Assembly: GCF_027924905.1 (NCBI RefSeq)
Contig: NZ_AP027055.1
Coordinates: forward strand, 1,178,001 to 1,242,000
Length of the DNA stretch: 64,000 nucleotides
Direction: 5' to 3'
Source of the DNA: Limnohabitans sp. INBF002
GTDB taxonomy: Bacteria; Pseudomonadota; Gammaproteobacteria; Burkholderiales; Burkholderiaceae_C
How positions within the stretch are numbered: the first letter of the stretch is position 1; every line of letters begins with the position of its first letter. Both the position numbers and the translations under genes were made by a program. The notes beneath the pieces are model-generated. The model saw only the letters and a list, made by a program, of their open reading frames with translations. It was not told the DNA's origin and did not search any database. This document shows, in pieces, positions 28,301 through 44,736 of the stretch.

Positions 28301-28316
28301 TTTTTAGCTGAGCTCG

Positions 28317-28394
28317 CTTCGGCTGCTCGGTATGGGCCTAGCCCTCATGCTGGGGTACCAGAAATCGGTCTCGATCCATACCGAGCAGCCGAAG
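28317..28394. repeat. Fold-back element A (conserved loop, variable arms)
   Basis: Two perfect 19-bp complementary arms (28317-28335 and 28376-28394) enclose a 40-bp loop. The loop contains the shared core at 28343-28367: CCTCATGCTGG, then G, then GTACCAGAAATCG, matching copies B and C at 24 of 25 positions. The arm sequence is unrelated to those of B and C. Total length is 78 bp against 80 bp in B and C, so the unpaired inner bases may be decayed arm. It sits between convergent rlmB and chrA, followed by a T9 run on the plus strand. Confidence 0.85.
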
Positions 28395-28416
28395 ACTGCG
28401 GCCTGCGTTTTTTTTT
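28376..28416 (+). terminator. Terminator-like right arm and T9 run after rlmB
   Basis: The right arm of element A is followed by a GC-rich stretch and nine T residues (28408-28416). The long stem plus T-run should end rlmB transcription. The T-run reaches into the last codon of the opposite-strand ChrA gene. Confidence 0.55.
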
Positions 28417-29011
28417 AGATCCAATCTAGGGCGCCTAGTAAGGCGCCGAAACCTAGCAGTAGCAACAGGTGCGTTTTGGTTTTCCACACGATGAGTGTGG
28501 TGGCACCTGCTAAGACCCACAAGGGCCAATCACGTGCGGGGTTTTCGTGGTTGCCTGTGAGCAGCCAACCCGTGGCGATGAGCAGTGCAATCACGAGGGG
28601 GGCCATGCCGCTTTTGAAGGCTTTGACGGCCAGCATGTCGCGGTTTCGATGTGCCCATTGCGTGGCGACAAAGGTGAGGGTGCAGGATGGAATCATGATG
28701 CCGACCATGGTGATGAGCACACCCCACAAGGCCAAGACCACTGCTGGCCAGCCTGCTGATAAGCCACCACCTGCGTTAAGGCCCACGTTCCAACCCATCA
28801 AGGCGACAAACATCACGTTGGGGCCGGGTGCGCCTTGGGCCAAGGCGATGGACGAGGTGAATTGCGTGTCGGTCAGCCAATGCGTTTCATCCACCAAGTA
28901 GCGGTGAATGTCGGGTGCGGTGGTGATAGCTCCCCCGACTGCCAAAAGCGACAGCGAAATGAAGTGCAAAAAGAGCGAGCCCCAATCGGCAAGGGTCAAG
29001 GTGATGCTCAT
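28415..29011 (-). CDS. chrA: Chromate transporter ChrA family, second subunit
   Basis: 198-aa membrane protein with about six helices and the ChrA signature ALAQGAPGPNVMFVALMGW. It is a half-size (short-chain) ChrA and overlaps its partner half by 4 bp; the two probably form a heterodimer that exports chromate or another anion. ATG at 29011 preferred. It ends next to fold-back element A. Some short ChrA pairs are of unproven substrate. Confidence 0.82.
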   Translation of the reverse strand: MSITLTLADWGSLFLHFISLSLLAVGGAITTAPDIHRYLVDETHWLTDTQFTSSIALAQGAPGPNVMFVALMGWNVGLNAGGGLSAGWPAVVLALWGVLITMVGIMIPSCTLTFVATQWAHRNRDMLAVKAFKSGMAPLVIALLIATGWLLTGNHENPARDWPLWVLAGATTLIVWKTKTHLLLLLGFGALLGALDWI

Positions 29012-29607
29012 GCCACACCTCGTTGTTTGATGCAATGCGCCGCCCACACGCTGGCCAATGGCCCTAGGCTGAGCAGTACCCAAGCTAATGGCAAGCGCAG
29101 CAAGCCGATGGCGATGAAGGTGAGGGTGCCTATGCCAATGCAGGTCAGCATCCCCATGGGGTTGTTTTTCAAAGCACCCATGAGCTTGATGCCCACTGCC
29201 GCAATCAGGCCTGCCGATACGGCACCCATGCCCCGCAGCATGCCTTGTGCCATGGGGGTGTCTGCAACGCCGGCAACTGCAGCAGCCAGCAAAAGCACCA
29301 ACGCGGTGGGGGCTAGCAGCAAGCCACTGAGTGCAGCCAGTGCACCGCTGATGCCAAAGTGACGCCCACCAATCATGAGTGCGAGGTTCACCACGTTTGG
29401 GCCAGGCAAGATTTGCGCAACGGCCCAGTCTTCGACAAATTCATCAAGCGTGAGCCATTGCTTTTTATCGACCAACTCACGTTGCACAACGGCCAGTACA
29501 CCGCCAAAACCTTGCAAGGCCAATAGCGTGAAAGAGATGAATAGATCAGTTTTGCTGTGCGGCGCGTTGGGGGCTGCACTGTGGTGCCGCGTGTGGGTGT
29601 CGCTCAT
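29008..29607 (-). CDS. chrA: Chromate transporter ChrA family, first subunit
   Basis: 199-aa half-size ChrA with the motif [19 protein letters not shown] and several hydrophobic helices; N-terminal [16 protein letters not shown] is the conserved start. Together with the next gene it makes up one full-length ChrA. Its start overlaps the SDR stop by 4 bp, so SDR and both ChrA halves form one minus-strand operon. Confidence 0.84.
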
Positions 29608-30371
29608 ATCGTCAGGCCACCAGCTACCTCAATGACCGTGCCGTTGATGTACGAGGCTTCGTCGCTTGCTAAAAATGCATAGACGTTGGCAATGTCTTCG
29701 GGTTGGCCCAAGCGCTTGAGCGGTACACGCTCCGTCATCTCGTGGATGACTTTCTCAGGGATGGTGGACAAGATGGGGGTTTGAATAAAGCCGGGTGCCA
29801 CGGCGTTCACGCGAATGCCTTTGGGGCCGAGTTCACGGCTCCATGTTTTAGTAAAACCAATCACGCCAAATTTCGTTGCGGCGTAGTTGGTTTGGCCGAA
29901 GTTGCCGTAGATGCCCACCACCGATGACGCATTCAAAATCACGCCGTTGCCTTGAGCCACCATGGCGTCGGTTACCGCTTGTGCGCAATGGAACACACCG
30001 CGCAGGTTGACGTCGATCACACGGTCAAACTGTTCCAGTGTCATTTTTTGCAAACGCGCATCCTGCGTGATGCCCGCGTTGTTGACCAACACATCGATGC
30101 GGCCGAACTTGTCGAGAACCGCTTTGACCGTGGCATCCACCATGTCGCGCTGCGTCACATCCACCACAAAGCCAAGGGCCTGCGCACCCAAGGCTTGGCA
30201 TTGCTTCACGGCCTCATCTACCGCTGCTTGTTTGACATCGCACACGATGACGATGGCGCCTTCTTGTGCAAATTTGAGGGCGGTGGCTAAGCCAATGCCT
30301 TGTGCAGCGCCTGTGATGAGGCTGACCTTGCCTAACAGTCGCTGCGTTTGCGAGTTGTGGTTTGTATTCAT
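29604..30371 (-). CDS. Short-chain dehydrogenase/reductase, FabG-like
   Basis: NAD(P)-dependent SDR of 255 aa. Cofactor motif [12 protein letters not shown], catalytic YAATK with Ser in NASSVVG, and the PG motif are intact. It resembles 3-oxoacyl-ACP/acetoacetyl-CoA reductases, but position divergent from a sugar ABC operon would also fit a sugar dehydrogenase; sequence alone does not settle it. It shares the control region 30372-30498 with the ABC operon. Confidence 0.8.
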
Positions 30372-30390
30372 GCCTCGAGTTTAAACATCG

Positions 30391-30478
30391 TGTTGAAACT
30401 TAGGGATATACCTAGTAAATCAACTTGATTGATTAAGTAAGAATAAATCAACTTGAGTGATTAATTCAAGTTTCAACA
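30391..30478. promoter_or_regulatory. Control region with nested repeats before the glucose ABC operon
   Basis: Two direct copies of a 22-bp sequence starting AAATCAACTTGA lie at 30417-30438 and 30445-30466 (20 of 22 identical, 28 bp apart). The first contains the palindrome AATCAA-C-TTGATT. They are flanked by an 11-bp inverted repeat, TGTTGAAACTT (30391-30401) and AAGTTTCAACA (30468-30478). A related 22-mer occurs before frcB at 54842. This looks like a repressor-binding array between two divergent genes. Confidence 0.6.
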
Positions 30479-30498
30479 CATTTTCAAGCGAGACAAAT

Positions 30499-31746
30499 AT
30501 GAAATTGAATCAACTGTTTTTGGCCTGCGCTGCAGCTTTGTCAGTGTCTGCAGCGGTGGCTGGCGAAGTCGAAGTCCTGCATTACTGGACATCAGGTGGC
30601 GAAGCTAAATCAGCCGCTGAGCTGAAAAAGATCATGGCAGCCAAAGGCCATGCTTGGAAAGATTTCGCAGTGGCAGGTGGCGGCGGTGACAACGCGATGA
30701 CCGTGTTGAAGAGCCGTGTGGTGGCAGGCAACCCACCTTCAGCCGCACAAATCAAAGGCCCCGCCATTCAAGAGTGGGCGCAAGAGGGCGTGTTGGCCAA
30801 CTTGGATAGCGTGGCGCAAGCCGAGAAGTGGGACAGCTTGTTGCCACAAGTGGTCGCCAATGTCATGAAATACAAAGGCAACTACGTGGCAGCGCCCGTC
30901 AACGTGCACCGCGTGAACTGGGTGTGGGCCAATCCTGAGGTTTTGAAGAAAGCCGGCGTGTCTGCCATGCCGACCAGCTACGACGAGTTCTTTGTTGCAG
31001 CCGACAAAATCAAAAAAGCAGGCCTCATTGCTGTGGCCCACGGCGGCCAAAACTGGCAAGACTTCACCACCTTTGAGTCGGTGGTGTTGGGCGTCGGTGG
31101 TGCCAAGTTTTACCAAGATGCCTTGGTCAAGCTTGATCCCAAAGCCTTGAACAGCCCGACCATGAAAAAGTCGCTCGAGACATTCCGCAAGATCAAGGGT
31201 TACACCGATGCCGCATCGCCTGGCCGCGATTGGAACTTGGCTACGGCCATGGTCATGCAAGGCAAAGCCGGTTTTCAGTTCATGGGTGACTGGGCCAAGG
31301 GCGAGTTTGTGGCCGCAGGTAAAAAGCCAGGCAAAGACTTCTGGTGTGCGGCGGCCCCCGGTACAGCCAAGTCATACACCTTCAACGTCGATTCATTTGC
31401 GATGTTCAAGCTCAAAGATGCAAGCGCACAAAAAGCCCAAGGCGATTTGGCAGCCGCGATCATGAGCACCGATTTCCAAGAAGTGTTCAACCTCAACAAG
31501 GGCTCTATCCCTGTGCGCTTGAACATGTCGATGGCCAAGTTTGACGACTGTGCCAAGCTCTCTAGCAAAGATTTCGTGGACACCGCCAAGACCGGCGGCT
31601 TGGTCCCCTCCGTGGCCCACGGCATGGCGATTTCGCCAGCGACCGAAGGCGCGATCAAAGATTTGGTGAGCCAGTTCTGGAACGACGACAAGATCAGCAT
31701 TGACGAAGGTCAAAAGCGTCTCGTTGCCGCCGCAGCCACCAAATAA
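30499..31746 (+). CDS. gtsA: Glucose/mannose-type ABC transporter substrate-binding protein
   Basis: Periplasmic sugar-binding protein of the MalE-like (family 1) class. A Sec signal peptide ends near SAAVAGEV; the mature protein begins VEVLHYWTSGGEAKSA, very similar to the glucose/mannose receptors of pseudomonads and relatives. ATG at 30499 gives 415 aa. It leads the operon SBP-porin-permease-permease-ATPase. Substrate is inferred from family resemblance and the adjacent Entner-Doudoroff genes. Confidence 0.85.
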   Translation: MKLNQLFLACAAALSVSAAVAGEVEVLHYWTSGGEAKSAAELKKIMAAKGHAWKDFAVAGGGGDNAMTVLKSRVVAGNPPSAAQIKGPAIQEWAQEGVLANLDSVAQAEKWDSLLPQVVANVMKYKGNYVAAPVNVHRVNWVWANPEVLKKAGVSAMPTSYDEFFVAADKIKKAGLIAVAHGGQNWQDFTTFESVVLGVGGAKFYQDALVKLDPKALNSPTMKKSLETFRKIKGYTDAASPGRDWNLATAMVMQGKAGFQFMGDWAKGEFVAAGKKPGKDFWCAAAPGTAKSYTFNVDSFAMFKLKDASAQKAQGDLAAAIMSTDFQEVFNLNKGSIPVRLNMSMAKFDDCAKLSSKDFVDTAKTGGLVPSVAHGMAISPATEGAIKDLVSQFWNDDKISIDEGQKRLVAAAATK

Positions 31747-31790
31747 GCAGCAGCTCGACTGTTGAAACATAAACCTTGGAGATACAAACA

Positions 31791-33017
31791 ATGAAGATGA
31801 AATTAACTTGCGTGGCTGCTGCTTTGTGCTGCTTGAGCACAGCCGCTTTGGCCGCTGATGTGGGCGGTGTGGAAGTCACTGGCTACAGCCGTGGCGGTGG
31901 TGTGTACAGCTACAACAAAGACCAACAGGTCAAAGGTGGCTTGACGCTCGGCGGTGACCTGCAAAAGTACCGTTTGGGTAACGAGGGTGACTACGGTGTT
32001 GAAGTCAACATCGCCAAAACCTTTGACGTCGAAGGCGTGAAATACAAACTCGACTACATGCCCACCAAGTGGAACAGTGGCAACGTCGGCACAGAACAAG
32101 CCTTTGTGGAGATGAGCGGTTTGAGCTTTGCACCTGAAGCCAAAATTTGGGCAGGTCAACGCCGTCTTCGTATTCAGGATGTGCACATCGTGGACCACTT
32201 CTTGATGGACTACGGCGTGAACCAAGGTTCTGGTTTTACTGATTTGTCCGTCGGTGGAATGAAATTGGGCGCAGCCTTGCAAACAGGCGATACCTTTGAT
32301 TCAAAAATGATTGCGGGTACTTCAGCAAACAAGCTGAACTTGGATTTGTCTGAAATCAACACCAACCCCGGCGGTAAAGCCCGCGTATTGCTGACCTCAG
32401 TTAGCACCTCAGGCTTGAAGAGCAGCGGTGGTTCTGGTTTCACTGTGAGCCACAACCAATCTGACTTTGTTGTGAAGGGCTTGACCAATAGCTTGTTCTT
32501 GCAAACCTCTAGTGGCTACGCCAATATCAATGGTCGATTTGGCGCTTTCTACGATACAAGTGGTGCAAACCCAGTTGCGATTTATGGCAAGAAAACAAAC
32601 CGCATTGCTGACTCGATCAACTGGCAATCTGGTGCGTTCGGAGGCCAAGCGATCGTGGGTTACCAAACGACCAAGTCAGATGACCCAGCTGTCACTTACA
32701 CCATCAAAGATACCTCTCTGGGTGGTCGCGTGTCTTACGCTGTTTCAAAGAACTTCAAATGGTTGGTGGAAGCAGGCACCACATCACGCAAGTTCAGCGA
32801 CAACCAAGCCTCACAGCGCTTGAACAAGCTGACGATCGCTCCCACATTGGCTTTGTCTCCAGACTTCTGGTCACGTCCTGAGTTACGTTTTTACGTGACG
32901 AAAGCCAACTGGAACCAAGCAGCAGCTGACGCGAACAACAACGCGACCACAGGCTTCGGTGCCAACGGCCGCACCTCACAAACACTCGCTGGCGTTCAGT
33001 ACGAAGTGTGGTGGTAA
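31791..33017 (+). CDS. LamB-like carbohydrate porin
   Basis: Outer-membrane sugar channel. A signal peptide (LCCLSTAALAA) precedes a beta-rich barrel with LamB hallmarks: KYRLGNEGDYGVEV and IWAGQRRLRIQDVHIVDHF, and a C-terminal aromatic residue (EVWW) recognised by the BAM machinery. ATG at 31791 follows TTGGAG. About 408 aa. Its place between the binding protein and the permeases argues that it admits the same sugar. Confidence 0.85.
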   Translation: MKMKLTCVAAALCCLSTAALAADVGGVEVTGYSRGGGVYSYNKDQQVKGGLTLGGDLQKYRLGNEGDYGVEVNIAKTFDVEGVKYKLDYMPTKWNSGNVGTEQAFVEMSGLSFAPEAKIWAGQRRLRIQDVHIVDHFLMDYGVNQGSGFTDLSVGGMKLGAALQTGDTFDSKMIAGTSANKLNLDLSEINTNPGGKARVLLTSVSTSGLKSSGGSGFTVSHNQSDFVVKGLTNSLFLQTSSGYANINGRFGAFYDTSGANPVAIYGKKTNRIADSINWQSGAFGGQAIVGYQTTKSDDPAVTYTIKDTSLGGRVSYAVSKNFKWLVEAGTTSRKFSDNQASQRLNKLTIAPTLALSPDFWSRPELRFYVTKANWNQAAADANNNATTGFGANGRTSQTLAGVQYEVWW

Positions 33018-33038
33018 GCAAGGCTTGAACGAGGGATT

Positions 33039-33066
33039 GGGAAAGGGGGGACCCTTTCCCTTTTTT
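33039..33066 (+). terminator. Strong terminator between porin and permease genes
   Basis: GGGAAAGGG pairs perfectly with CCCTTTCCC around GGGA, followed by T6 and another T-rich stretch. It lies inside what is otherwise one transport operon and should lower permease expression relative to the binding protein and porin. Confidence 0.85.
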
Positions 33067-33088
33067 GTTTTTTTAAAAAGGCACTCAG

Positions 33089-33970
33089 ATGCAAAAGCAT
33101 CGCTTAGAAGCGTTGATTCCCAAAATGGTGGTTGCTCCCGGCTTGGTGCTGGGTTTTGCATTCATCTACGGGTTCATGATTTGGAACGGCGTGTTGTCGG
33201 TCACCGTCTCGCGCATGTTGCCCAACTACGAGTTCGCAGGTTTGGCGCAGTACGCCAAGTTGTGGGAGATGGACCGCTGGTGGGTCGCCCTGAAAAACCT
33301 GGCTATTTTCGGCATCGGCTATGTCGCTGGTGCCATGGCTTTGGGCGTCTTTTTGGCTGTTTTGTTAGACCAAAAAGTGCGCGCTGAAGGCTTCATTCGC
33401 ACCGTGTATTTGTACCCCATGGCTTTGTCATTTGTGGTCACGGGTACGGCGTGGAAGTGGTTGCTCAACCCCAGCATGGGCCTAGAAAAACTCATGCATG
33501 ACTGGGGCTGGAGCAGCTTCAGTTTCAGTTGGTTGGTCGAGAGCGACATGGCCATTTACTGCGTGGTGATTGCCGGTGTGTGGCAGTCGGCGGGTTTTGC
33601 CATGGCCTTGTTTTTGGCAGGCTTGCGCGGCATTGACGACAGCATCATCAAAGCGGCGCAGATTGATGGCGCGTCGCTGCCCCGTATTTATTGGCGCATC
33701 GTGTTGCCTGCGTTGCGCCCTGTGTTTTTCTCGACCTTGATGGTGCTGTCGCATCTGGCCATCAAGAGTTTTGACCTCATCATGGCGCTCACATCGGGCG
33801 GTCCGGGTTACGCCACCGATGTGCCCGCCACCTTCATGTACGCCATGAGTTTCACGCGTGGGCAAATAGGCTTGGGCGCCGCCAGCGCCACCATGATGTT
33901 GGCCACCGTGGCTGCCTTGGTCGTGCCTTATCTCTACAGCGAATTGCGGAGCAAAAACCATGAGCACTAA
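33089..33970 (+). CDS. gtsB: Sugar ABC transporter permease (MalF-like)
   Basis: Inner-membrane permease with about six helices and the EAA loop (IIKAAQIDGASLPRIYWRIVLP) that contacts the ATPase. 293 aa. It overlaps the second permease by 11 bp. It follows the internal terminator and a new ribosome site. Confidence 0.9.
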   Translation: MQKHRLEALIPKMVVAPGLVLGFAFIYGFMIWNGVLSVTVSRMLPNYEFAGLAQYAKLWEMDRWWVALKNLAIFGIGYVAGAMALGVFLAVLLDQKVRAEGFIRTVYLYPMALSFVVTGTAWKWLLNPSMGLEKLMHDWGWSSFSFSWLVESDMAIYCVVIAGVWQSAGFAMALFLAGLRGIDDSIIKAAQIDGASLPRIYWRIVLPALRPVFFSTLMVLSHLAIKSFDLIMALTSGGPGYATDVPATFMYAMSFTRGQIGLGAASATMMLATVAALVVPYLYSELRSKNHEH

Positions 33971-34829
33971 GTTCTTTTCTGCGCAAACGCTGTGGCGTGC
34001 GTTGCTCTATGTCACCTTGTTGGTGGGCGCTGTGTTCTTCTTGGCACCGCTCTACGTGATGCTGGTGACCTCGCTCAAAGACGCTGAAGAAATTCGTCAA
34101 AACAGCTTGGTCAGCTTGCCCGGCGCCTTGAACTTTGAGGCCTGGCGTTTGGCATGGGACTCGGCCTGTACCGGTGCGCAGTGTTCAGGCCTAGAGCCCT
34201 TCTTTTGGAACTCGGTGTGGATGGCAGTGCCTGCGGTGTTGATCTCCACCACCTGGGGCTCGCTCAATGGCTACGTGCTGAGTTTGTGGAAATTTCGCGG
34301 CAGCGAAACCTTGTTTGCTTTGCTGCTGTTTGGCGTGTTCATGCCGTTTCAAGTCGTGCTGTTGCCCATGAGCCAAGTGCTCGGTTGGTTAGGCATGTCC
34401 AGCTCCATCGGCGGTTTGATCTTAGTGCACTTGTTGGCGGGCTTGCCCAGCACCACCTTGTTTTTTCGCAACTACTACGCGGGCATTCCTAAAGATTTGA
34501 TGAACGCCGCGCGCATGGATGGCGCGGGTTTTTGGATGATCTTTTTCCGCATCATCGTGCCCATGTCCACGCCGATTGTGATGGTCACTTTGATTTGGCA
34601 ATTCACCCAAATCTGGAATGACTTTTTGTTTGGCGTGGCCTTCAGCGGCGCCGACTCCAAGCCCATCACCGTGGGTTTGAACAATTTGGCCAACACCACC
34701 AGCAGCGTCAAAGCCTACAACGTGGACATGGCGGCTGCGTTGATTGCGGGCTTGCCCACCATGCTGGTGTATGTACTGGCAGGACGATATTTTGTGCGCG
34801 GCCTCACCGCCGGCGCTGTCAAAGGTTAA
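33960..34829 (+). CDS. gtsC: Sugar ABC transporter permease (MalG-like)
   Basis: Second permease of the importer, about six helices, with EAA loop DLMNAARMDGAGFWMIFFRI. The larger periplasmic segment between the first two helices contains two cysteines (CTGAQCSGLEPFF) that could form a disulfide. 289 aa, typical. Confidence 0.9.
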   Translation: MSTKFFSAQTLWRALLYVTLLVGAVFFLAPLYVMLVTSLKDAEEIRQNSLVSLPGALNFEAWRLAWDSACTGAQCSGLEPFFWNSVWMAVPAVLISTTWGSLNGYVLSLWKFRGSETLFALLLFGVFMPFQVVLLPMSQVLGWLGMSSSIGGLILVHLLAGLPSTTLFFRNYYAGIPKDLMNAARMDGAGFWMIFFRIIVPMSTPIVMVTLIWQFTQIWNDFLFGVAFSGADSKPITVGLNNLANTTSSVKAYNVDMAAALIAGLPTMLVYVLAGRYFVRGLTAGAVKG

Positions 34830-34840
34830 AAGGAACGACG

Positions 34841-35905
34841 ATGTCTTCAGCATTAGAAATTCGCGGCATTCGCAAGTGTTTTGGCAAGGGTGACAACACG
34901 GTGGAGGTGCTCAAACGCATCGACATCGACGTGGCCCCCGGTGAGTTCTTGATCTTGGTCGGCCCCTCGGGCTGCGGCAAGTCCACCTTGCTCAACATCA
35001 TTGCGGGTTTGGAAGAGCCCACCGAAGGCAGCATTGCCATTGGCAACAAAAACGTGGTGGGCGTGCCGCCCGCGCAGCGCGACATTGCGATGGTGTTTCA
35101 AAGCTACGCGCTATACCCCACGATGAGCGTGGCCGAGAACATTGGCTTCGCCCTCGAAATCCGCAAAGTGCCCAAGGCCGAGCGTCAAGCGCGCATTGCC
35201 GAAGTGGCGGCCATGTTGCAAATTGAGCATTTGCTAGACCGTCGTCCTTCGCAACTCTCAGGCGGCCAACGTCAACGCGTGGCCATGGGCCGTGCTTTGG
35301 CGCGCAACCCACAGCTGTTTTTGTTTGATGAGCCGCTGTCTAACCTCGATGCCAAGTTGCGCGTGGAGATGCGTGCCGAAATCAAACGCTTGCACCAGCT
35401 CAGCGGCATCACCAGCGTCTATGTGACGCATGACCAAGTTGAAGCCATGACCTTGGGCAGCCGCATCGCGGTGATGAAGGGCGGTGTGTTGCAACAGCTC
35501 GGAACCCCTGATGAGATTTACAACCGTCCTGCCAACACCTATGTGGCGACCTTCATTGGTTCACCCACGATGAACTTGGTCGAGGGCAGGGCATCGGGCG
35601 AAGGGCAGTTCACAGTGGCAGGTGCACAACTGGCTTTGGCCGTGCCTGACAACGCCAGCAAACCTAGCTTGCTGGGTTTGCGGCCAGAACACATCCGTTT
35701 GAATGATGCCGCGCCTTGGCGTGGTGTGGTGAATTTGGTCGAGCCCACAGGTGCCGACACCTATGTGGTGGTGGACACGGCGGCTGGCAAAGTCACGGTG
35801 CGCGCTGCGCCGCAAACGCAGGTGCGCCCTGGTGACGCTGTGGGCTTAGAGATTCAAGTCGAATATGTGACTTGGTTTGACCAAGCCTCGGGCTTGCGTT
35901 TGTAA
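34841..35905 (+). CDS. gtsD: Sugar ABC transporter ATP-binding protein (UgpC/MsmK-like)
   Basis: ATPase of the carbohydrate importer. Walker A GPSGCGKST, signature LSGGQRQRVAMGRA and Walker B FLFDEPLSNLD are present, and the C-terminal TOBE/regulatory domain (LLGLRPEHIRL) is the MalK-type arm. 354 aa. The stop is 3 bp from the stop of the convergent LacI gene. Confidence 0.92.
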   Translation: MSSALEIRGIRKCFGKGDNTVEVLKRIDIDVAPGEFLILVGPSGCGKSTLLNIIAGLEEPTEGSIAIGNKNVVGVPPAQRDIAMVFQSYALYPTMSVAENIGFALEIRKVPKAERQARIAEVAAMLQIEHLLDRRPSQLSGGQRQRVAMGRALARNPQLFLFDEPLSNLDAKLRVEMRAEIKRLHQLSGITSVYVTHDQVEAMTLGSRIAVMKGGVLQQLGTPDEIYNRPANTYVATFIGSPTMNLVEGRASGEGQFTVAGAQLALAVPDNASKPSLLGLRPEHIRLNDAAPWRGVVNLVEPTGADTYVVVDTAAGKVTVRAAPQTQVRPGDAVGLEIQVEYVTWFDQASGLRL

Positions 35906-35908
35906 AGT

Positions 35909-36934
35909 TCAGGTGCTGCCGCGCACCATCAGTTCGTAGCCTACGTCCACGCTGGGCGTAGGCACATCCTCTTCACGCATCAGGTTCAGCAGCATCTTGG
36001 CTGCGGCTTCACCAATTGCGGCCCGTGGCGTGCGGATGGTGGTCAGGCCTGGGCCAACGAGATCGCTGCCTGTGAGGTCGTTGAAACCTGCAATCGCGAG
36101 CTGCTGAGGGACTTTGATTTTCAAGCGTTGAGCTGCCAACAACGCGCCTTGGGCCAAGTCATCGTTACAGAAGAAGATGGCGTCAATGCTGGGGTCTTGG
36201 GCCATGATGTGTTGCAGCATCTCACCACCCAAAGCCATGGATGACGGCGATTTGTTGGTGTAGCTCAAGGCCTTGTCATACAGCTTGGCCGCCTTGAGCG
36301 TTTTGCGCCAACCGTCCAAGCGCTGCATGGTGCGTGGGTCGAGTTGGGCCGCTGCAAAGGCAATGCGTTGGCGTCCACGTTGCAGCAAATGCTCGGTCAA
36401 CGTCATGGCCGCTTGTGTTTGTGAGAACCCCACACTGTTGACATCAGGCGATTGGGCGAGCTCCATCATGTGCACACACGGAATGCCACTTTTTTCAATC
36501 AGCTCACGTGCCGCATCGCTGCGGTCTAGGCCTGTGACCAAGATACCTGCAGGGCGGTGCTGCAATTGTTCGCGTATGAGTTGTTCTTCTTCGCGCGTGT
36601 CGTAGTGGGTGATGCCAATCAAGGTTTGGTAGCCCGCATGGCGCAGTGTTTTTTGGATGGACTCCAACACGTCCACAAACAAGTTGTTGGACAGCATCGG
36701 AATCAACACCGCCACGTGGTCGCTGTGGCGCGAGGCGAGGGCGCGTGCGGCGGGATCGGGGGTGTAGCCCAGTTTCAAAGCGGCGGCTTTGACGCGGTCG
36801 GTCAAATCAGAGGCCACCGCACGTTCACCGCGTAACGCACGCGACACGGTGATGGGGCTGACCTTGGCCAAAGCGGCCACATCCGCCAGCGTGACGCGGC
36901 CTGTGGCGCGAGAACGGGTTTTGGTGGGCTTCAT
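35909..36934 (-). CDS. gntR: LacI-family regulator, probable gluconate repressor (GntR-like)
   Basis: 341-aa repressor. The N-terminal HTH and hinge (VTLADVAALAKVSPITVSRALRGERAV) is followed by a periplasmic-binding-type effector domain. It is divergent from gntK and a TRAP transporter, with palindromic operators GATAGCGCTATC between the genes, so it probably represses both itself and the gluconate genes until gluconate or 6-phosphogluconate binds. The effector is inference. The name is the LacI-type GntR, unrelated to the GntR superfamily. Confidence 0.85.
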   Translation of the reverse strand: MKPTKTRSRATGRVTLADVAALAKVSPITVSRALRGERAVASDLTDRVKAAALKLGYTPDPAARALASRHSDHVAVLIPMLSNNLFVDVLESIQKTLRHAGYQTLIGITHYDTREEEQLIREQLQHRPAGILVTGLDRSDAARELIEKSGIPCVHMMELAQSPDVNSVGFSQTQAAMTLTEHLLQRGRQRIAFAAAQLDPRTMQRLDGWRKTLKAAKLYDKALSYTNKSPSSMALGGEMLQHIMAQDPSIDAIFFCNDDLAQGALLAAQRLKIKVPQQLAIAGFNDLTGSDLVGPGLTTIRTPRAAIGEAAAKMLLNLMREEDVPTPSVDVGYELMVRGST

Positions 36935-36980
36935 GTGGCTCAGGGTTTTTGCTAGGTTGGGAACTGTATGGTTTGTTTAT

Positions 36981-36992
36981 GATAGCGCTATC
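36981..36992. promoter_or_regulatory. Operator 1 of the gluconate module
   Basis: GATAGCGCTATC is a perfect 12-bp palindrome with the central CG expected for LacI-family repressors. It lies 47 bp before the regulator's start codon and thus suits autoregulation. Confidence 0.8.
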
Positions 36993-37048
36993 CAAGAGTG
37001 AACGATGTGATGGTTATCACGGAGTTTGCTCTACTTTTTATCAAAATG

Positions 37049-37062
37049 GGATAGCGCTATCC
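37049..37062. promoter_or_regulatory. Operator 2 of the gluconate module
   Basis: GGATAGCGCTATCC is a 14-bp perfect palindrome sharing the core of operator 1, centred 69 bp from it and ending 5 bp before the gntK ATG. A repressor here would block the ribosome-site region or the promoter of gntK. Confidence 0.82.
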
Positions 37063-37067
37063 AATCT

Positions 37068-37586
37068 ATGAATGAATCTGAGTTGATGAGTCCTGTGGTC
37101 ATCATGGGTGTGGCCGGTTGCGGCAAGTCCAGCTTTGCGGCAGCCTTGTCGCAAGCTTTGGGCTGGCAGTTGATTGAAGGGGACGAGTTTCATCCGCCTG
37201 AAAACGTCAACAAAATGCGCGCTGGCATTCCATTGACCGACGATGACCGTGCAGGTTGGCTGGATGTGTTGGCCAACGCGCTGGTGCAACGTGGCCCGCA
37301 TGCGGTGCTCACGTGTTCGGCCCTGAAGAAAGCCTACCGTGACCGTTTGCGCCAAAGCGTGCCAGCCTTGCGTTTTGTACACCTGGACCTCACGCGTGAG
37401 CAATCCATCGCGCGTGTGACGCAACGACCCGGCCACTACTTTCAGCCCGCGTTGGTGGACAGCCAATTTGCGGCCCTAGAAAAACCAGTGGACGAAGCCG
37501 GTGTGTTCACCGCAGACGCCACGCAAAGTATTGAAACGATCCAGGCACAGGTGTGTGCTTGGTTGCAAGCCAAGGAGTGTGTATGA
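37068..37586 (+). CDS. gntK: Gluconokinase
   Basis: Phosphorylates gluconate to 6-phosphogluconate, the substrate of Edd in the operon 12 kb away. P-loop GVAGCGKSS and the conserved GDEFHPPENVNKM and SALKKAYRDRLR segments are typical. ATG at 37068 gives 172 aa; an ATG at 37086 is an alternative. A start further upstream (37026) would read through operator 2 and is rejected. Overlaps the TRAP small subunit by 4 bp. Confidence 0.92.
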   Translation: MNESELMSPVVIMGVAGCGKSSFAAALSQALGWQLIEGDEFHPPENVNKMRAGIPLTDDDRAGWLDVLANALVQRGPHAVLTCSALKKAYRDRLRQSVPALRFVHLDLTREQSIARVTQRPGHYFQPALVDSQFAALEKPVDEAGVFTADATQSIETIQAQVCAWLQAKECV

Positions 37587-38083
37587 GTACCAATCAAACC
37601 ACCTCACGCAGTCAGTCCATCGCGCACGTGATGATGGCCGCGTGTTTGGGTGTCATGGCGGTGGCCGTGTTTTTCAACGTGGTGTTGCGCTACGGTTTTG
37701 GCAGCGGCATTGCGGCGAGTGAAGAGCTCTCGCGTTTGTTGTTTGTGTGGATGGTGTTCATTGGTGCCACCGCAGCTTATCCAGCTGGTGAGCACATGGC
37801 CTTCACCAGCTTCGTCGCCGGTTTACGCCATCACCCCAAAACGCTCCAAGCCTTGACGATATTGATTCGTGCCTTGGTGATTCTGAGCTGCCTGATGTTG
37901 GGCCGTGGCGCTTGGCAGCAGGTGGAAGTGGGTTTGTCTAGCAACTCGGTGGTGTTGGGTTACCCCAATTGGTTGCTACCGTTGCCTGTGTTGTTGTCCT
38001 CATTGGCGATTGGCTTGATGGCACTCAAAGAATTGATTCAGAACAAAGCTATGGATTTTGACCACGGCGTGGACGTGGAGTAA
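37583..38083 (+). CDS. dctQ: TRAP transporter small permease (DctQ)
   Basis: Four-helix small membrane subunit of a tripartite ATP-independent transporter; SEELSRLLFVWMVFIGA is the family motif. The ATG overlaps the gntK stop (ATGA), and AAGGAG lies upstream. Co-translation with gntK makes gluconate the likely substrate. Confidence 0.9.
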   Translation: MSTNQTTSRSQSIAHVMMAACLGVMAVAVFFNVVLRYGFGSGIAASEELSRLLFVWMVFIGATAAYPAGEHMAFTSFVAGLRHHPKTLQALTILIRALVILSCLMLGRGAWQQVEVGLSSNSVVLGYPNWLLPLPVLLSSLAIGLMALKELIQNKAMDFDHGVDVE

Positions 38084-38088
38084 ACAGC

Positions 38089-39381
38089 ATGACACCAGAA
38101 GCACAAGCATTCATAGTTTTCTCGGCGGGCATGTTGTTGCTCATGGGCATTGGCCTGAACATGGCATTTGCCTTGGTTCTCACAGGTGCAGGCATGGCGT
38201 GGACCCTTGATTTTTGGGACACCCAGTTGCTGGCCCAAAACTTGGTCGCGGGCGTGGACAGCTTTCCATTGTTGGCCGTGCCGTTTTTCATTTTGGCGGG
38301 TGAGTTGATGAACTCAGGTGGCATCAGCCGCCGCATCATCGACATGGCACAAGCTTGGGTGGGTCACATCCGTGGTGGTTTGGGTTTTGTGGCGATTGGC
38401 GCTGCGGTGCTCATGGCCAGCATGAGCGGTTCTGCCTTGGCCGACACTGCCGCGTTGGCCACCATTTTGTTGCCCATGATGAAGCGTCAGGGCTACCCCA
38501 TGCACACCTCGGCAGGCTTGATTGCTTCGGGCGGCATCATTGCCCCCATCATTCCGCCATCCATGCCGTTTGTGATTTATGGCGTGACCACCAACACCTC
38601 CATCTCTTCTTTGTTTTTGTCTGGCATCGTGCCCGGACTGATCATGGGCATTGGTTTGATCGTGGCGTGGAAGCTTCAACTGCGCGACATGGATTTGCCT
38701 CAGGGTAAAAAGCTCCCCTTGATCGAGCGTTTGCACGCCACACGCAAAGCCTTCTGGGCCATGCTCATGCCGCTCATCATCATTGGTGGCATGAAGACGG
38801 GTATCTTCACGCCTACCGAAGCAGCCGTGGTCGCGGCGTTTTACGCCTTGGTGGTGGCTTTGGTGATTCACCGGGAAATGAAGCTGATTGAAATCCACGA
38901 GGTGTTGGTGCGTGCTGCCAAGACCACGGCTGTGGTGATGTTCTTGTGCGCAGGCGCACAAGTGGCCAGCTACATGATCACTTTGGCTGATTTGCCAACG
39001 GTGCTCACCGGATGGCTAGGCCCCTTGGTGGAAAGCCCTCGCGTATTGATGGCAGTGATGATGGTGACGTTGGTGCTGATTGGTACCGCTCTTGACCTCA
39101 CGCCTACGATTTTGATTTTTGCGCCCGTGATGTTGCCCATCGCGGTGAAGGCTGGCATTGACCCCGTGTATTTCGGGTTGATGTTTGTGCTCAATGGCGC
39201 GATTGGTTTGATCACACCGCCGGTCGGCACTGTGCTCAATGTGGTGGCCGGTGTGGGACGTTTGTCCATGCACCAAGTCATCAAAGGGGTGAACCCGTTT
39301 TTGGTGACTTACCTCATCATCTTGACTGCGTTTGTTTTGTTCCCAGAAATCGTGACCGCCCCTGTGGCGTGGATGCGATAA
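38089..39381 (+). CDS. dctM: TRAP transporter large permease (DctM)
   Basis: 430-aa permease with about twelve helices. ALADTAALATILLPMM and the GLITPPVGTVLNVV segment are hallmarks of DctM. It uses a sodium gradient to import the substrate delivered by DctP. 5 bp after dctQ. Confidence 0.92.
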   Translation: MTPEAQAFIVFSAGMLLLMGIGLNMAFALVLTGAGMAWTLDFWDTQLLAQNLVAGVDSFPLLAVPFFILAGELMNSGGISRRIIDMAQAWVGHIRGGLGFVAIGAAVLMASMSGSALADTAALATILLPMMKRQGYPMHTSAGLIASGGIIAPIIPPSMPFVIYGVTTNTSISSLFLSGIVPGLIMGIGLIVAWKLQLRDMDLPQGKKLPLIERLHATRKAFWAMLMPLIIIGGMKTGIFTPTEAAVVAAFYALVVALVIHREMKLIEIHEVLVRAAKTTAVVMFLCAGAQVASYMITLADLPTVLTGWLGPLVESPRVLMAVMMVTLVLIGTALDLTPTILIFAPVMLPIAVKAGIDPVYFGLMFVLNGAIGLITPPVGTVLNVVAGVGRLSMHQVIKGVNPFLVTYLIILTAFVLFPEIVTAPVAWMR

Positions 39382-39404
39382 GTTTTAACCCAAGGAGACT
39401 TCCC

Positions 39405-40424
39405 ATGACTTTTCTTCGTCGAACCCTGATTGCTGCAGCCACCGTGGCCGTGGCCAGCGCCTCGTTTTCTGCCTTTGCGCAAGACATCAAGCCACGCTTG
39501 ATTCGCTTTGGCTACGGCTTGAACGAGCAAAGCAACCAAGGCCGTGCAGCCAAAGTGTTTGCTGAGCAAGTGGAAAAAGCCTCTGGCGGCAAAATGAAAG
39601 TGCGCGCCATTGGTGCTGCCGCATTGGGCCCAGACACACAAATGCAACAAGCTTTGATTGGCGGCGCACAAGAGATGATGGTGGGCTCTACCGCCACCTT
39701 GGTGGGCATCACCAAAGAGATGGCTTTGTGGGACACCCCGTTCTTGTTCAACAACGTCAAAGAAGCCGATGCCGTGTTGGACGGCCCCATTGGCCAAAAA
39801 GTGATGGACAAGTTGCAAGACAAAGGCTTGGTCGGTTTGGCTTATTGGGAAAATGGTTTTCGTAACCTGACCAACAGCAAGCGCCCCGTGACTAAGCTGG
39901 AAGACTTGAACGACGTCAAGCTGCGTGTGATGCAAAACAATGTGTACCTCGACAGCTTCAAGCTCTTGGGCGCCAACGCCGTGCCCATGCCTTTCTCAGA
40001 GTTGTTCAGCGCCTTGGAAACCAAAACGGTTGATGGCCAAGAGAACCCGTACAACACCATTTTGTCGAGCAAGTTCTACGAAGTGCAAAAGTACTTGAGC
40101 GTGACCAACCACGTGTACAGCCCCTGGATCGTCACGGTGAGCAAAAAGTGGTGGGATGGCTTGAGCAAGACCGAACAAAAAATCTTGCTCGATGCCGCAC
40201 GCGTGAGCCGCGACTTCGAACGTAAAGACACCCGTGACGAAGCTGCCAAAGCTTTGGGTGATTTGAAAGCCAAGGGCATGCAAATCAACGAGTTGTCGGT
40301 GGCTGAAGTCAACCGCATGCGTGACAAGCTCACGCACGTCAACGCAGGCATTGCCACCAACGTGGGCATGGACTTGTGGAATGACACACAGAAAGAACTG
40401 ACACGTTTGCGTGCCAAGAAGTAA
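39405..40424 (+). CDS. dctP: TRAP transporter substrate-binding protein (DctP)
   Basis: Periplasmic receptor of the TRAP system. A signal peptide (LIAAATVAVASASFSAFAQ) is followed by the DctP fold; LRVMQNNVYLDSFKLLGANA contains the conserved substrate-carboxylate Arg and the NP(Y) loop follows in DGQENPYNTIL. AAGGAG precedes the ATG at 39405. Ends the module; a terminator follows. Substrate inferred as gluconate from gntK. Confidence 0.9.
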   Translation: MTFLRRTLIAAATVAVASASFSAFAQDIKPRLIRFGYGLNEQSNQGRAAKVFAEQVEKASGGKMKVRAIGAAALGPDTQMQQALIGGAQEMMVGSTATLVGITKEMALWDTPFLFNNVKEADAVLDGPIGQKVMDKLQDKGLVGLAYWENGFRNLTNSKRPVTKLEDLNDVKLRVMQNNVYLDSFKLLGANAVPMPFSELFSALETKTVDGQENPYNTILSSKFYEVQKYLSVTNHVYSPWIVTVSKKWWDGLSKTEQKILLDAARVSRDFERKDTRDEAAKALGDLKAKGMQINELSVAEVNRMRDKLTHVNAGIATNVGMDLWNDTQKELTRLRAKK

Positions 40425-40440
40425 TTTCTAACACCCCATG

Positions 40441-40468
40441 AGAAAAGCCACCCTCGGGTGGCTTTTCT
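40441..40468 (+). terminator. Rho-independent terminator after the TRAP operon
   Basis: AGAAAAGCCACC pairs with GGTGGCTTTTCT around CTCG and runs into TTTG. A perfect stem, ending the gntK-dctQMP transcript. Confidence 0.9.
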
Positions 40469-40502
40469 TTTGTTTGAGTTGTTTCGCATCTATTGCGATT
40501 GA

Positions 40503-41324
40503 TCAGAACTCAGCTTTGTTGATCTGCGATGCGCGCATGTTGCCGTTTTTCACCTTGTAGAGAGTAATTGAATAGCCCGATGCTCTTTCCTCGTCTACCC
40601 TGAAATTGAATGTCGAACTTGCCTTGGAATATGCTGTGTCGTTGCCAAAGTAGTCTTCATATCCGTACCACCTATGGCCAGATGCATATTTCAAGTGATA
40701 ACGACCTTGCGGAACCATAGTGGACAAATCTCTGCCGCCTTCTACAAATATGCCCAACACGTTTGTGCCGGTTGTGGCATCAACGAATTTGACAAAGTAG
40801 CTTGAGCCAGTGGAAGTCTTAATCTCAAAAGGAACAACACTCGCCTGGGGCGGGCCATACCACTTCATCGCACCATGGGCAGGTTTAGCCAAAACTGGTG
40901 GTGCGTCTGTGAAATCCGAATCTGCCAGAGCATTGGGTGTTGTCTGGGGATGTGCTGCAGCCGGTGCGATCTTTGCGGGGGCGGCTACCGCCTTGTCTTT
41001 GATGGAGGGATAAAGGTCGTAGCAAGCCAAGGACGCAACCTGGCTGTTGGTATGAATCGCGCACTCTTCAGCATTTGCGTACCCAAATATGCGACTGTAA
41101 ATTGGAGGGCTGAGTATGAACGCGAGACTGATCGCTGTCGCTAAGAGCACCCATAGGCTTTTACGCTTCTGTGCCTCAGCACGCTTCACAGCTTCCAGAT
41201 TGTGGTTTATCTGATCGAGCACTTCAGCCGCTAGAACAAGCTCGTACTGTTCAAAGAATTCTTTGAAAGTAATGTCCCCGTCGTCGAATTGCTTCAACAG
41301 CTCGCGTTTATTCATAGTTTTCAT
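40503..41324 (-). CDS. Hypothetical single-pass membrane protein, possible accessory gene
   Basis: 273 aa, family not recognised. A charged helical N terminus (residues 1-55) leads to one membrane helix at about 57-75, an Ala/Pro-rich linker (about 112-160) and a C-terminal region (160-262) rich in Gly, Tyr and Ser with alternating hydrophobics (SSYFVKFVDATTGTN, GRYHLKYASGHRWYGYE), suggesting a beta-sandwich. Both codon use and the flanking bases are richer in A and T than in neighbouring genes. It stands alone between two operons, without a clear ribosome site. Possibly acquired by transfer. Confidence 0.6.
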   Translation of the reverse strand: MKTMNKRELLKQFDDGDITFKEFFEQYELVLAAEVLDQINHNLEAVKRAEAQKRKSLWVLLATAISLAFILSPPIYSRIFGYANAEECAIHTNSQVASLACYDLYPSIKDKAVAAPAKIAPAAAHPQTTPNALADSDFTDAPPVLAKPAHGAMKWYGPPQASVVPFEIKTSTGSSYFVKFVDATTGTNVLGIFVEGGRDLSTMVPQGRYHLKYASGHRWYGYEDYFGNDTAYSKASSTFNFRVDEERASGYSITLYKVKNGNMRASQINKAEF

Positions 41325-41485
41325 GAGAGTTAAGTTGGGTCCGAGTAATTTTCGTTAGAAGCGCGCGTATTGCCTCTATCCAGTTTTTAGGGTAATCCTA
41401 AATAATTCTAATGGTGGATATTTCCCGAAAGACCTCTACTGGCCGCGTTTCTTCTGCTAGCCGATTTAAGTACCAACCCACCGAT

Positions 41486-41510
41486 AAGTCGCACATATCA
41501 TGTGCGACTT
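41486..41510 (-). terminator. Hairpin downstream of ppc
   Basis: AAGTCGCACAT pairs perfectly with ATGTGCGACTT (11 bp, loop ATC) 21 bp after the ppc stop. No T-run follows on the minus strand, so it is a putative terminator or mRNA 3' stabiliser. The rest of the 207-bp gap (41325-41531) holds only a small TTAGG/CCTAA stem at 41387-41401. Confidence 0.5.
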
Positions 41511-41531
41511 CTACCAATCACCGCTTGTCAC

Positions 41532-44411
41532 TTAGCCTGTGTTGCGCAACCCTGCCGCAATGCCGTTGATCGAGATGTGAATGCCGCGTTGGGCTTTCTC
41601 ATCACGGTCTTGCGGGCGCTTGCCTTCGCGGTAGCGGCGAATCAATTCGACTTGCAAATGGTGCAGCGGGTCGATGTAGGGGAAGCGATGGCGCATGGAG
41701 CGTTCCAGCGCGGCGTTGTTCACCAAACGTTGCTTGTCACCGGTGATGAGCTTCAAAGCATCTGATGTGCGGTGCCATTCGGCTTCAATCAAACCAAAAA
41801 TCTTCTTGCGCAAACGGGTGTCGCTCACCAACTCGGCGTAGCGCGACGCCAAGCCCAAATCGCTCTTGGACAACACCATGTCGAGGTTGGACAAGAGCGA
41901 ACGGAAGAACGGCCATTGGCGCTGCATTTTTTGCAACAAGGCCAGCGCGTCTTTGGGTTTGAGTGTGGGGTGTTGGTGGATGAACTGGTCCACAGCCGAA
42001 CCAAATCCCAACCAGCCGGGCAAGGTCAAACGGCATTGGCCCCAACTAAAGCCCCAAGGAATCGCGCGCAAGTCTTCGATGCGCGGCGATGCATTGCCGC
42101 TCTTGGGACGCGCCGCAGGGCGTGAGCCAATGTTGAGCTCGGCAATTTCACGCAAGGGCGTGGAGGCAAAGAAGTATTCAGTAAAGCCCGGTGTCTCGTA
42201 CACGAGGCCACGGTAAGCGGCCATGCTGGCGTGTGAGAGCCACTGCGCCGCATCCAAGAAAGCTTGCGGTGCTGGCTTGGTGGTTTGCAGCATCGTGGCT
42301 TCCAAAGTAGCCGCCACGAGGGTTTCTAAATTGCGACGGCCAATTTCGGGGTTGGCGTATTTGGAGCCAATCACTTCGCCTTGTTCGGTGAGGCGAATTT
42401 GCCCGCGCACCGTGCCTGGGGGCTGCGCCAAAATCGCTTGGTAGCTGGGGCCGCCGCCACGACCCACGGTGCCGCCACGGCCGTGGAACATGCGCAGCGT
42501 GATGTCGTGTTGTTTGAACAAGCCATCAAACAACGTGACCAAAGCAATCTCGGCGCGGTACAGCTCCCAGTTGCTGGTGAAGATGCCGCCGTCTTTGTTG
42601 CTGTCCGAGTAGCCCAACATGATGTCTTGCTCGCCGCCGCTGCGCTTGACCAAGTTGGCCACGCCGTCAATCGCGTAGAAGCCACCCATGATGTCAGCGG
42701 CACAGCGCAAGTCTTCGATGGTTTCAAACAAAGGCACCACGATCAAATCGCAGGTCGATGTTTTGCTGCCCAACGTGCCACGCATCAAACCGGTTTCTTT
42801 TTGCAGCAACAACACTTCGAGCAAATCGCTCACGGTCTCGGTGTGGCTGATGATGTAGTGGCGAATGGCATCTTTGCCAAAGGTCTCCAGCATCTCGCGT
42901 GCTGTTTCAAAAATTGCCAGCTCTTTGAGCGCGAGTTCTGAGTAGTTGGCACCCATCACACGCAGAGGGCGTGCATCGTGCAGCAGTTTGTTCAACGCTT
43001 CGACGCGTTGTGTTTCATTGAGCTTGGCGTAGTGTTTCTCCACACCTGCCGTAGCCAGCAACTCGGCCACCACCAACTCGTGTTGGTCAGAGCTTTGACG
43101 CAAGTCCACGGTCGCCAGGTGAAAGCCAAACACCTCCACCGCACGCATGAGCGGTGTGAGGCGCTGGGCCATCAAGGCGCTGCCGTGTTGGTGATGGAGT
43201 GAGTCCGCAATCACACACAAATCAGCCAGCAACTCTTGCGCTGACAGATAGGGGTTTTGTGGCGCTACCGCATGACGCGCAGCATCACCACCGGTCAGGT
43301 CTTTGAGCGTGGCGGCCAAGCGTGCATACATGCCGGTGAGGGCGCGGCGATACGGTTCGTCTTGGCGGTGCGCGTTGGTGTCGGGTGAGCGGTCAGCCAA
43401 GGCATGCATCTCAGGCGTGACATCAACCAACATGGCCGACATCGACAACTCAGTGCCCAAGTAATGCAGCTCGGTCAGGTAGTGGCGCAAGGCCACATCA
43501 CACTGGCGACGCAAGGCGAAGCGCAGTGTGTCGGCGTTGACATTGGGGTTGCCATCGCGGTCACCACCAATCCATTGGCCCATGCGTAAAAAGCTGTGCA
43601 CATGGGCTTGGCCCAGCTCGGCTTCGAGGTCGGCGTAGAGCTTTGGAATTTCGCTCAAGAACGTGGATTCGTAATAGCTCAATGCATTTTCAATTTCGTC
43701 TGACACGGTGAGCTTGGTGAAACGCAGCAAGCGGGTTTGCCACAGCTGCAACACACGTGCGCGCAATTGCATTTCGTTGGCGGCGAGTTCGCGCAGCGCC
43801 AAAGCATCAGGGGCTTTTGCAGAAGCGTGCAGGGCTGAGCGAGATTTGATGTCGTCACGCAAACCCAAGAGTTGCGCAATGCCACGCTCGGCATCCAAGA
43901 TGCTTTTGCGTTGCACTTCGGTGGGGTGGGCTGTGAGCACAGGCGACACATGGCTGTGCGCCAATGTCTGCACGATGCTCTTAGGTGCAATGCCTGCTGC
44001 TTTGAGGCGACTGAGCGCCATGTGCAAGCTGCCTTCTTGCGTATCGCCTGCGCGTTCGTGAATGGCGCGGCGGCGAATGTGGTGGCGGTCCTCAGCCAAG
44101 TTGGCCAAGTGGCTGAAGTAGGTGAACGCGCGAATCACGCTAACCGTGGCTTCGGCGCTGAGCGAGGCCAAGAGTTTTTTCAATGCTTTGTCAGCGTTGG
44201 CATCCGAGTCGCGGCGAAACGCCACCGAGAGTTTGCGCACTTGCTCGACCAACTCATAGGCTTCTTTGCCTTCTTGTTCGCGAATCACATCGCCCAAGAT
44301 GCGGCCTAACAGTCGAATGTCTTCAACCAAGGGACGTTCGTTCTCTTTGGCTTGCTGTGTGGCTCTGGCTGCTGCAGTGGGTTTGGCTTTGGCTGAAGTT
44401 TTGTCAGTCAT
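41532..44411 (-). CDS. ppc: Phosphoenolpyruvate carboxylase
   Basis: Carboxylates PEP to oxaloacetate, refilling the TCA cycle. The catalytic histidine lies in [13 protein letters not shown], with [11 protein letters not shown] and [14 protein letters not shown] as the other active-site loops, and a C-terminal RNTG that binds inhibitors. 959 aa, slightly longer than E. coli Ppc because of a short Lys/Ala-rich N terminus. Preceded by a 390-bp intergenic region with two fold-back elements, after glk on the same strand. Confidence 0.96.
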
Positions 44412-44470
44412 GTGTTGCTCGTTTTGTGAAATGTGAATTCTTTGCTGTCTTGTTTTTGTGTGCTGTGCTC

Positions 44471-44550
44471 GCTTGGCTACAGGGGAATGCGCAGGTTCCT
44501 CATGCTGGAGTACCAGAAATCGTCACCTGCGCATTCCCCTGCAGCCAAGC
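44471..44550. repeat. Fold-back element B (conserved loop, variable arms)
   Basis: Two 26-bp complementary arms (44471-44496 and 44525-44550, one mismatch) enclose a 28-bp loop at 44497-44524. The loop is identical, base for base, to that of element C read on the opposite strand and shares the core of A. The arms are unrelated to those of A or C. Total 80 bp. Inside the core, CTGG and CCAG can form a small stem. Confidence 0.88.
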
Positions 44551-44656
44551 TGCGAAGTCGCGAACTTGAAAGAGCAAGGGTGTGCAAGTGCACAGAAATG
44601 GGTGAAGCACGAAATGTCGAATGCAAATGCAGTGACTTTCTCTTCGATAACCAGAA

Positions 44657-44736
44657 GTGACGTAGCTGGCGGAGCGGCAGTTGACGATTTCTGGTACTCC
44701 AGCATGAGGAAACTGCCGCTCCGTCAGCTGCGTCAC
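44657..44736. repeat. Fold-back element C (conserved loop, variable arms)
   Basis: Two 26-bp complementary arms (44657-44682 and 44711-44736, two mismatches) enclose a 28-bp loop at 44683-44710. On the minus strand the loop is identical to that of element B, 28 of 28 bases. Arm length and total length (80 bp) also equal B, yet the arm sequence is different. It lies 106 bp from B, inverted. Confidence 0.88.

Follow-up and report, generated by a model that had tools for sequence, protein, structure and literature searches.

What sort of repeat keeps its loop constant while its arms differ at every locus? This question was raised by three intergenic hairpins in a stretch of 64,000 nucleotides from Limnohabitans sp. 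INBF002 (NZ_AP027055.1, positions 1,178,001 to 1,242,000; hereafter the window). Three intergenic elements with a common core, CCTCATGCTGGNGTACCAGAAATCG, had been described there, and this was confirmed: the core matched exactly three times in the window (28343-28367 and 44498-44522 on the plus strand, 44685-44709 on the minus strand) and never in 100 shuffles. Our results suggest that these hairpins belong to a family which probably dispersed in the distant past in the form of tiny mobile elements and has since been kept for its folded shape.

Anatomy of the hairpins and the strand that folds

Hairpin A (28316..28395, 80 positions; covariance model match G000:1206316-1206395 in the host genome) carried the core on the plus strand and its folded, constrained strand (see below) on the minus strand. 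It was a single copy in the convergent gap between rlmB (27551..28300, plus strand), a 23S rRNA methyltransferase gene on its left, and a chromate-transporter-like gene on its right (28415..29083, minus strand; its sole model match was below the curated cut-off). Plus-strand T-runs were found on both sides of A. The one before it (28301..28305) is an A-run after A on the folded strand, and the one after it (28408..28416) means that the core strand could be an intrinsic terminator for rlmB. Hairpins B (44471..44550, core strand plus, folded strand minus; G000:1222471-1222550) and C (44657..44736, core strand minus, folded strand plus; G000:1222657-1222736), likewise recovered by the covariance model, were the left and right members of an inverted pair. 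Their spacer (44551..44656) varied in length and sequence between species. The pair lay upstream of ppc (phosphoenolpyruvate carboxylase, 41532..44411, minus strand) and downstream of glk (glucokinase, 44802..45812, minus strand), and both hairpins had orthologues in genomes G048 and G050.

The family was not restricted to these three copies. The host genome (2,594,181 bases) displayed the 21-base core 20 times at up to two mismatches, the reversed control giving none, and seven inverted pairs held 14 of the 20 (171-214 bp from core start to core start). Complementary arms were found in all 20: in 19, at least 18 of 29 positions paired in one fixed register with G.T counted as a pair, and the remaining copy paired at 21 of 24 after a one-base shift. 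An arm paired with its own partner at a median of 25/29 positions and with the partner of another copy at a median of 14 (largest 23, n=380). Arms thus differed from locus to locus, as the original prediction held; its wording that they have no similarity was too strong, since mean 5' arm identity was 0.47 versus 0.30 in shuffles, for a compared stretch that takes in a few conserved bases beside the loop.

The unit comprised 80 positions: an arm stem of 29 positions leads to a 5x5 internal loop, followed by an apical stem of 4 bp that is closed by a loop of 4 bases. If L numbers the positions from the 5' edge of the core and R those from its 3' edge, the 29 pairs of this register join L[i+1] to R[i]. 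The apical stem covaried at its first pair (C-G in 54 and G-C in 11 of 66 aligned hairpins), and the stem forms met were CTGG/CCAG, GTGG/CCAC and GCGG/CCGC. The internal loop was near-constant, reading 5'-C GAUUU [apical stem-loop] YAUGA G-3' on the folded strand, where a drawing with a tandem G.A step is possible. Close to the loop, two positions were unpaired in 44 and 36 of the 66 rows; if the folded strand is read, they commonly give a GA/GA step. When the host genome was searched at E<=1 with a covariance model built from these 66 hairpins, 27 matches were obtained at 26 places, one place being matched on both strands. At the additional places, which the model alone recovered, the bases of the internal loop were retained and enclosed another apical stem-loop.

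Among 308 hairpins collected at up to two core mismatches (a set that left out two armless cores with three mismatches, L143:690 and L177:626), 295 displayed at least 18/29 pairs in one of two registers. The other 13 had fewer than 18 in both, some of them being one-base shifts. At L211:6819-7114, three close cores occurred, of which two point the same way and the third the other way, forming no simple inverted pair.

Covariation of the arms was assessed on 66 hand-picked hairpins out of 90 non-redundant ones. As all rows had been pre-filtered for at least 18/29 pairs, the percentage of paired cells, 88.9%, is biased upwards; the contrast with slid controls, in which 35-43% of cells paired, was still large, and shuffles gave 53.4%. 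Cells changed on both sides numbered 726 versus 209 in shuffles, and the covariation score reached 0.815, compared with 0.159 for shuffles and 0.117-0.151 for slid controls. In the same alignment, further pair types were not above shuffles (103 versus 105).

Mismatches in the arms were strongly asymmetric. On the core strand, the 90 non-redundant hairpins displayed 103 A.C and 12 G.T mismatches, and A.C likewise outnumbered G.T in each of four classes examined (193:27, 30:2, 10:1 and 64:5). The pairing filter took G.T, not A.C, as a pair and therefore works against this A.C excess. As an A.C mismatch corresponds to G.U (or G.T) on the opposite strand, the constrained fold lies on the complement of the core strand, 5'-C GAUUU CUGG UACN CCAG YAUGA G-3', which is not the strand originally given. 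RNA and single-stranded DNA are both compatible with this wobble signature. Both marks of a structured element, covariation for one fold and strand-specific wobble, were thus found.

Insertions, distribution and a candidate transposase

The linker of uvrA provided a comparison of occupied and empty sites among species of one genus (L366, G000:2294159-2296861, and L409-L438). In 30 loci, taken like those of rlmB from 44 genomes searched, the palindrome was present in frame in seven, in the opposite orientation in one, as a remnant in one and absent in 21; the covariance model recovered all eight intact palindromes. Element-free linkers matched an arm at 8-13 of 20 bases at best and contained no model match, which indicates that the arms arrive together with the element. 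This result, obtained at uvrA alone, speaks against two earlier suggestions, that the flank is copied as an inverted duplicate or that the element enters a pre-existing hairpin. Presence also varied in the rlmB gap: full hairpin A occurred in 3 of 30 loci (G000, G050 and G053) and shortened remnants in G048, G365 and G041, with no hairpin in G047 and G059, among others.

In G042, G011 and G356, the uvrA locus gave model matches outside the linker (L414:4302-4379, L427:3171-3248 and L428:3153-3230), so there may be more than one entry place in this gene. Weaker ones (L364 and L365, around G000:1497494 and 662552) fell in frames resembling an HrpA-like helicase and a formate dehydrogenase alpha subunit; the uvrA and formate-dehydrogenase-like copies encode a shared peptide, PGSSCGEPKSSPG.

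Within the genus of the window, cores were found in 12 of 61 genomes and covariance model matches in 22 of 61. In the family sample, cores at up to two mismatches occurred in 30 of 299 genomes, some lone two-mismatch matches being possibly due to chance. In the order sample, model matches (E<=1e-6) were confined to 4 of 300 genomes, all of the same family, weak members being missed since scoring covered 15 candidates per genome. The contig collection yielded at least 80 records (at least 119 stretches), including others labelled Limnohabitans, Rhodoferax or Polaromonas; among the matches listed, L108 was labelled Cryomorphaceae and the rest bore betaproteobacterial names. Two core matches in viral contigs were both armless and were taken as chance. 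Genome G124 of the family contained 61 copies with pairs 152-154 bp apart, and two arm types recurred among the 14 pairs listed. A further palindromic layer, the third, was formed by an inverted GGTAGCGCGCTACCGGTA-like repeat in the spacers of its pairs (L077-L104).

In other genera, the hairpin sat within inverted GGGGTCAGA repeats. Out of 48 left-hand GGGGTCAGATCAACATTAATTT-like repeats among the matches listed from the contig collection, 34 had an inverted partner enclosing a core, six a partner without recognised core (one holds a deletion-bearing core) and eight no partner. The same GGGGTCAGA was present in 24 of 30 loci of a RAYT-like Y1 gene in the genus of the window, inverted on both sides in 15, and fits the GGGGWSAS motif that TIRYT repeats share according to the available part of PMC3733652. 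This gene occurred in 47 of 61 genus genomes, usually once per genome, and the host protein scored 79.8 against a REP-associated tyrosine transposase model with a cut-off of 80. The presence of the gene, however, did not predict that of the copies, the figures being 47/61 as against 12/61 for cores and 22/61 for model matches. The long GGGGTCAGATCAACATTAATTT repeat (up to two mismatches) was found in 1 of 61 genus genomes and was absent from that of the window, whose hairpins displayed no GTAG, CGTC or GGGGWSAS ends in the flanks inspected. Given this lack of tracking and the rarity of the long repeat, we infer the link with a transposase, and we do so from the other genera and the 9-base motif. 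An autonomous version was sought between the inverted cores of three widely spaced pairs (L169, L132 and L119), and the enclosed frames, judged by eye, were not transposases; one, for instance, resembled a DNA methyltransferase and another a metallo-beta-lactamase.

Conservation at fixed loci and gene context

When flanks were matched with the hairpins masked, each of the 13 loci of the host genome proved to be occupied at the corresponding position in one or more of four related species, and the arm sequence particular to a locus was retained between species. The loop differed at 2.9% of sites (97.1% identity) and the arms at 10.2% (89.8%) in 112 orthologous comparisons. The flanking 100-nt stretches showed 70.7% identity, a value that compares only roughly with the ungapped identity of the arms, since gaps count as differences and gene ends may be included. 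Pair positions changed on both sides were still Watson-Crick in 118 cases and otherwise in 22; single-sided changes gave 185 A.C, 38 G.T and 101 other states, plus 38 with both or neither state Watson-Crick, all these counts being pairwise and not independent.

In site counts, made separately on 540 sites from 20 ortholog groups, a Watson-Crick pair alternated with A.C at 46 sites, with G.T at 11 and with other mismatches at 27. Two or more Watson-Crick types were recorded at 34 of the 540 sites, ten of which also had an A.C state and none a G.T state. Invariantly unpaired sites in these groups displayed no asymmetry (6 A.C, 5 G.T, 21 other). Arms at fixed loci therefore drift with compensating changes, and what is kept is pairing rather than sequence, which is at odds with the proposal that the arms carry specificity. 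Such constraint at fixed loci suggests a host role.

Gene context was derived from a greedy longest-ORF rule and compared with 259 background gaps from other genomes. All six single copies of the host genome lay in convergent gaps, versus 50/259 in the background (Fisher p about 7e-5), while its seven pairs were, under the same rough rule, convergent in two cases, tandem in two and divergent or unclear in three. With solos and pairs called inside ORFs or at contig edges left out (26 of 86 and 22 of 44, respectively), 60 usable solos of other genomes divided into 20 convergent, 33 tandem and 7 divergent, so that divergent gaps were rarer than in the background (67/259, p 0.018). The folded strand was sense in 15 and antisense in 18 of the 33 tandem-gap solos, and this lack of bias argues against an mRNA role at tandem gaps.

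Runs next to the hairpins were counted on 35 deduplicated hairpins from the genus of the window. An A-run of at least four followed the folded strand in 24 and a U-run in none, so that an intrinsic terminator on the folded strand was rejected for this genus; a T-run of at least four followed the core strand in nine. In the contig collection, a U-run followed the folded strand in 14 of 136 hairpins among the matches listed.

Relation to REP-type repeats and origin of the family

No match to Rfam was obtained in the window at the gathering score, and over 18 loci a single tRNA was the only one; the best sub-threshold match, to a microRNA hairpin model, reached 35.1 bits versus a required 100. 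A published description of the repeat was not found in the open-licence literature. The original view that no described class has these features was not supported: REPs, REPINs and TIRYT-associated palindromes have many of them in common with the present family, going by the accessible parts of PMC3733652 and PMC8266576.

Like REPs, BIMEs and REPINs as these sources portray them, the hairpins are short, mostly intergenic palindromes, often in inverted doublets, in convergent or tandem gaps and in some cases within uvrA; REPs themselves are reported in convergent gaps and within uvrA, and REPs that are transcribed in convergent gaps have been proposed to play a host role (PMC3733652, part available). 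TnpAREP binds the folded single-stranded REP DNA strand-specifically and contacts its loop or bulge (PMC8266576, part available), and in both systems a strand-specific hairpin has an irregular unpaired zone, which the enzyme reads in the REP/RAYT case. The doublet arrangement of BIMEs and REPINs recurred in the host genome (14 of 20 copies in seven inverted pairs) and in G124 (152-154 bp). REP stems, however, are given as 5-13 bp and REP units as 20-40 bp, as against 29 positions in the outer stem and 80 in the unit here. No conserved GTAG or CGTC was seen by eye at the hairpin foot in the flanks inspected (CGTC is present inside the core-strand loop, though not in all copies), and the long internal loop is nearly invariant across genera, unlike in REPs. 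Without such a tag and with a much longer stem, the unit falls outside the definition of a REP. The likeness to TIRYT terminal repeats lies in the inverted GGGGTCAGATCAACATTAATTT-like repeats bounding a solo class of other genera and in the inverted GGGGTCAGA repeats of the Y1 gene. The copies of the window differ by lacking such ends, and the constant-loop hairpin inside is not described for TIRYTs in the part of PMC3733652 available. In the subclass with most TIRYTs, the accessible text of PMC6006769 reports no REP-like sequences near the transposases. Rickettsia palindromic elements (RPEs), compared by description, are also palindromes inserted in frame, including in an excinuclease gene (PMC3733652, part available); they differ from the present family, which is mainly intergenic and has a constant loop.

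We put at about 0.55 the probability that the hairpins form a family akin to REPs and REPINs, made up of short, non-autonomous mobile palindromes which were spread by a Y1 enzyme via one folded strand and whose old copies have been kept as structured elements. A constant loop, variable self-complementary arms, a near-fixed length and a mobile origin, all anticipated in the original prediction, are supported by the data above. A Y1/HUH transposase that acts on single strands, as RAYTs and TIRYTs do, would recognise on one folded strand the irregular zone left unpaired, so that the loop would remain constant and the arms would need only to pair over a fixed length; the loop or bulge contacts of REP-type enzymes on one folded strand would explain a constant irregular zone with free arms. 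Inverted pairs would be doublets of the unit, comparable to those of BIMEs and REPINs. In the lineage of the window, movement would have stopped or become rare, and selection on the folded strand would preserve old copies, most likely in the form of RNA at the 3' ends of genes and preferentially between convergent genes. The RNA role is inferred. Against the reading as a whole stand the Y1 gene that does not track the copies, the missing tags and end repeats of the host hairpins, the report of no REP-like sequences near most TIRYT-subclass transposases, the invariantly unpaired sites without asymmetry, the further pair types at shuffle level and the lack of strand bias in tandem gaps. The core strand of hairpin A, not the folded one, also ends in a T-run, and pairs occur in tandem and divergent gaps as well. 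Tentatively, the C-GAUUU / YAUGA-G module of the folded strand, possibly with tandem sheared G.A pairs, could be an undescribed one that served as a transposase handle and then became a selected 3'-end RNA element, domesticated locus by locus with its arms free to covary.

Wobble of the G.U type with compensating changes at fixed loci, the conserved internal loop and the shortage of divergent gaps would suit a lineage-specific structured RNA element, such as a protein-binding or exonuclease-blocking 3'-end hairpin, spread independently of RAYTs and with the GGGGTCAGA-enclosed copies as secondary captures. We regard this as rather unlikely, as the in-frame uvrA copies, the model matches in other ORFs, the 61 copies in one genome and the patchy presence look mobile, and no orientation bias relative to tandem genes was seen. 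A purely selfish single-strand element, in which structure is selected in transposition only while neutral old copies have their arms kept alike by hairpin-templated correction, would agree with the strand-specific fold, the presence/absence and deletion differences and the REP analogy. It is made improbable by fixed copies whose loop and arm identities exceed those of the flanks, and by the 46:11 strand asymmetry at variable sites, since arm-templated correction should favour neither strand.

Two further readings retain little weight. Ordinary bidirectional intrinsic terminators sharing a loop by chance would account for the convergent gaps, the strong GC hairpins and the core-strand T-run after hairpin A, yet a common loop of 21 bases is not expected of unrelated terminators, T-runs and U-runs were as scarce in the genus as stated above, and copies lie inside uvrA; this origin is very improbable. 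The mechanisms first put forward (a loop that inserts and duplicates the flank, entry into a hairpin already present, or arms acting as guides) were meant to explain a constant loop on differing arms. They seem scarcely credible in view of the element-free uvrA linkers, with arm matches of at most 13/20 and no model match, and of arms that are inherited and covary at each locus.

Host use of REP-type repeats is an old question, for which this family offers a natural experiment. The same hairpin occurs at the same loci in related species, so that gains, losses and compensating changes can be read, and the strand signature marks the strand that folds. Domestication and selfish persistence thereby become directly testable, and one candidate recognition motif for RAYTs is provided.

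As to the repeats surrounding the hairpins of other genera, an 82-bp palindrome at L143:4059-4140 displayed GGGGTCAGA ends and similar arms around no constant loop, and is possibly a loop-less form.
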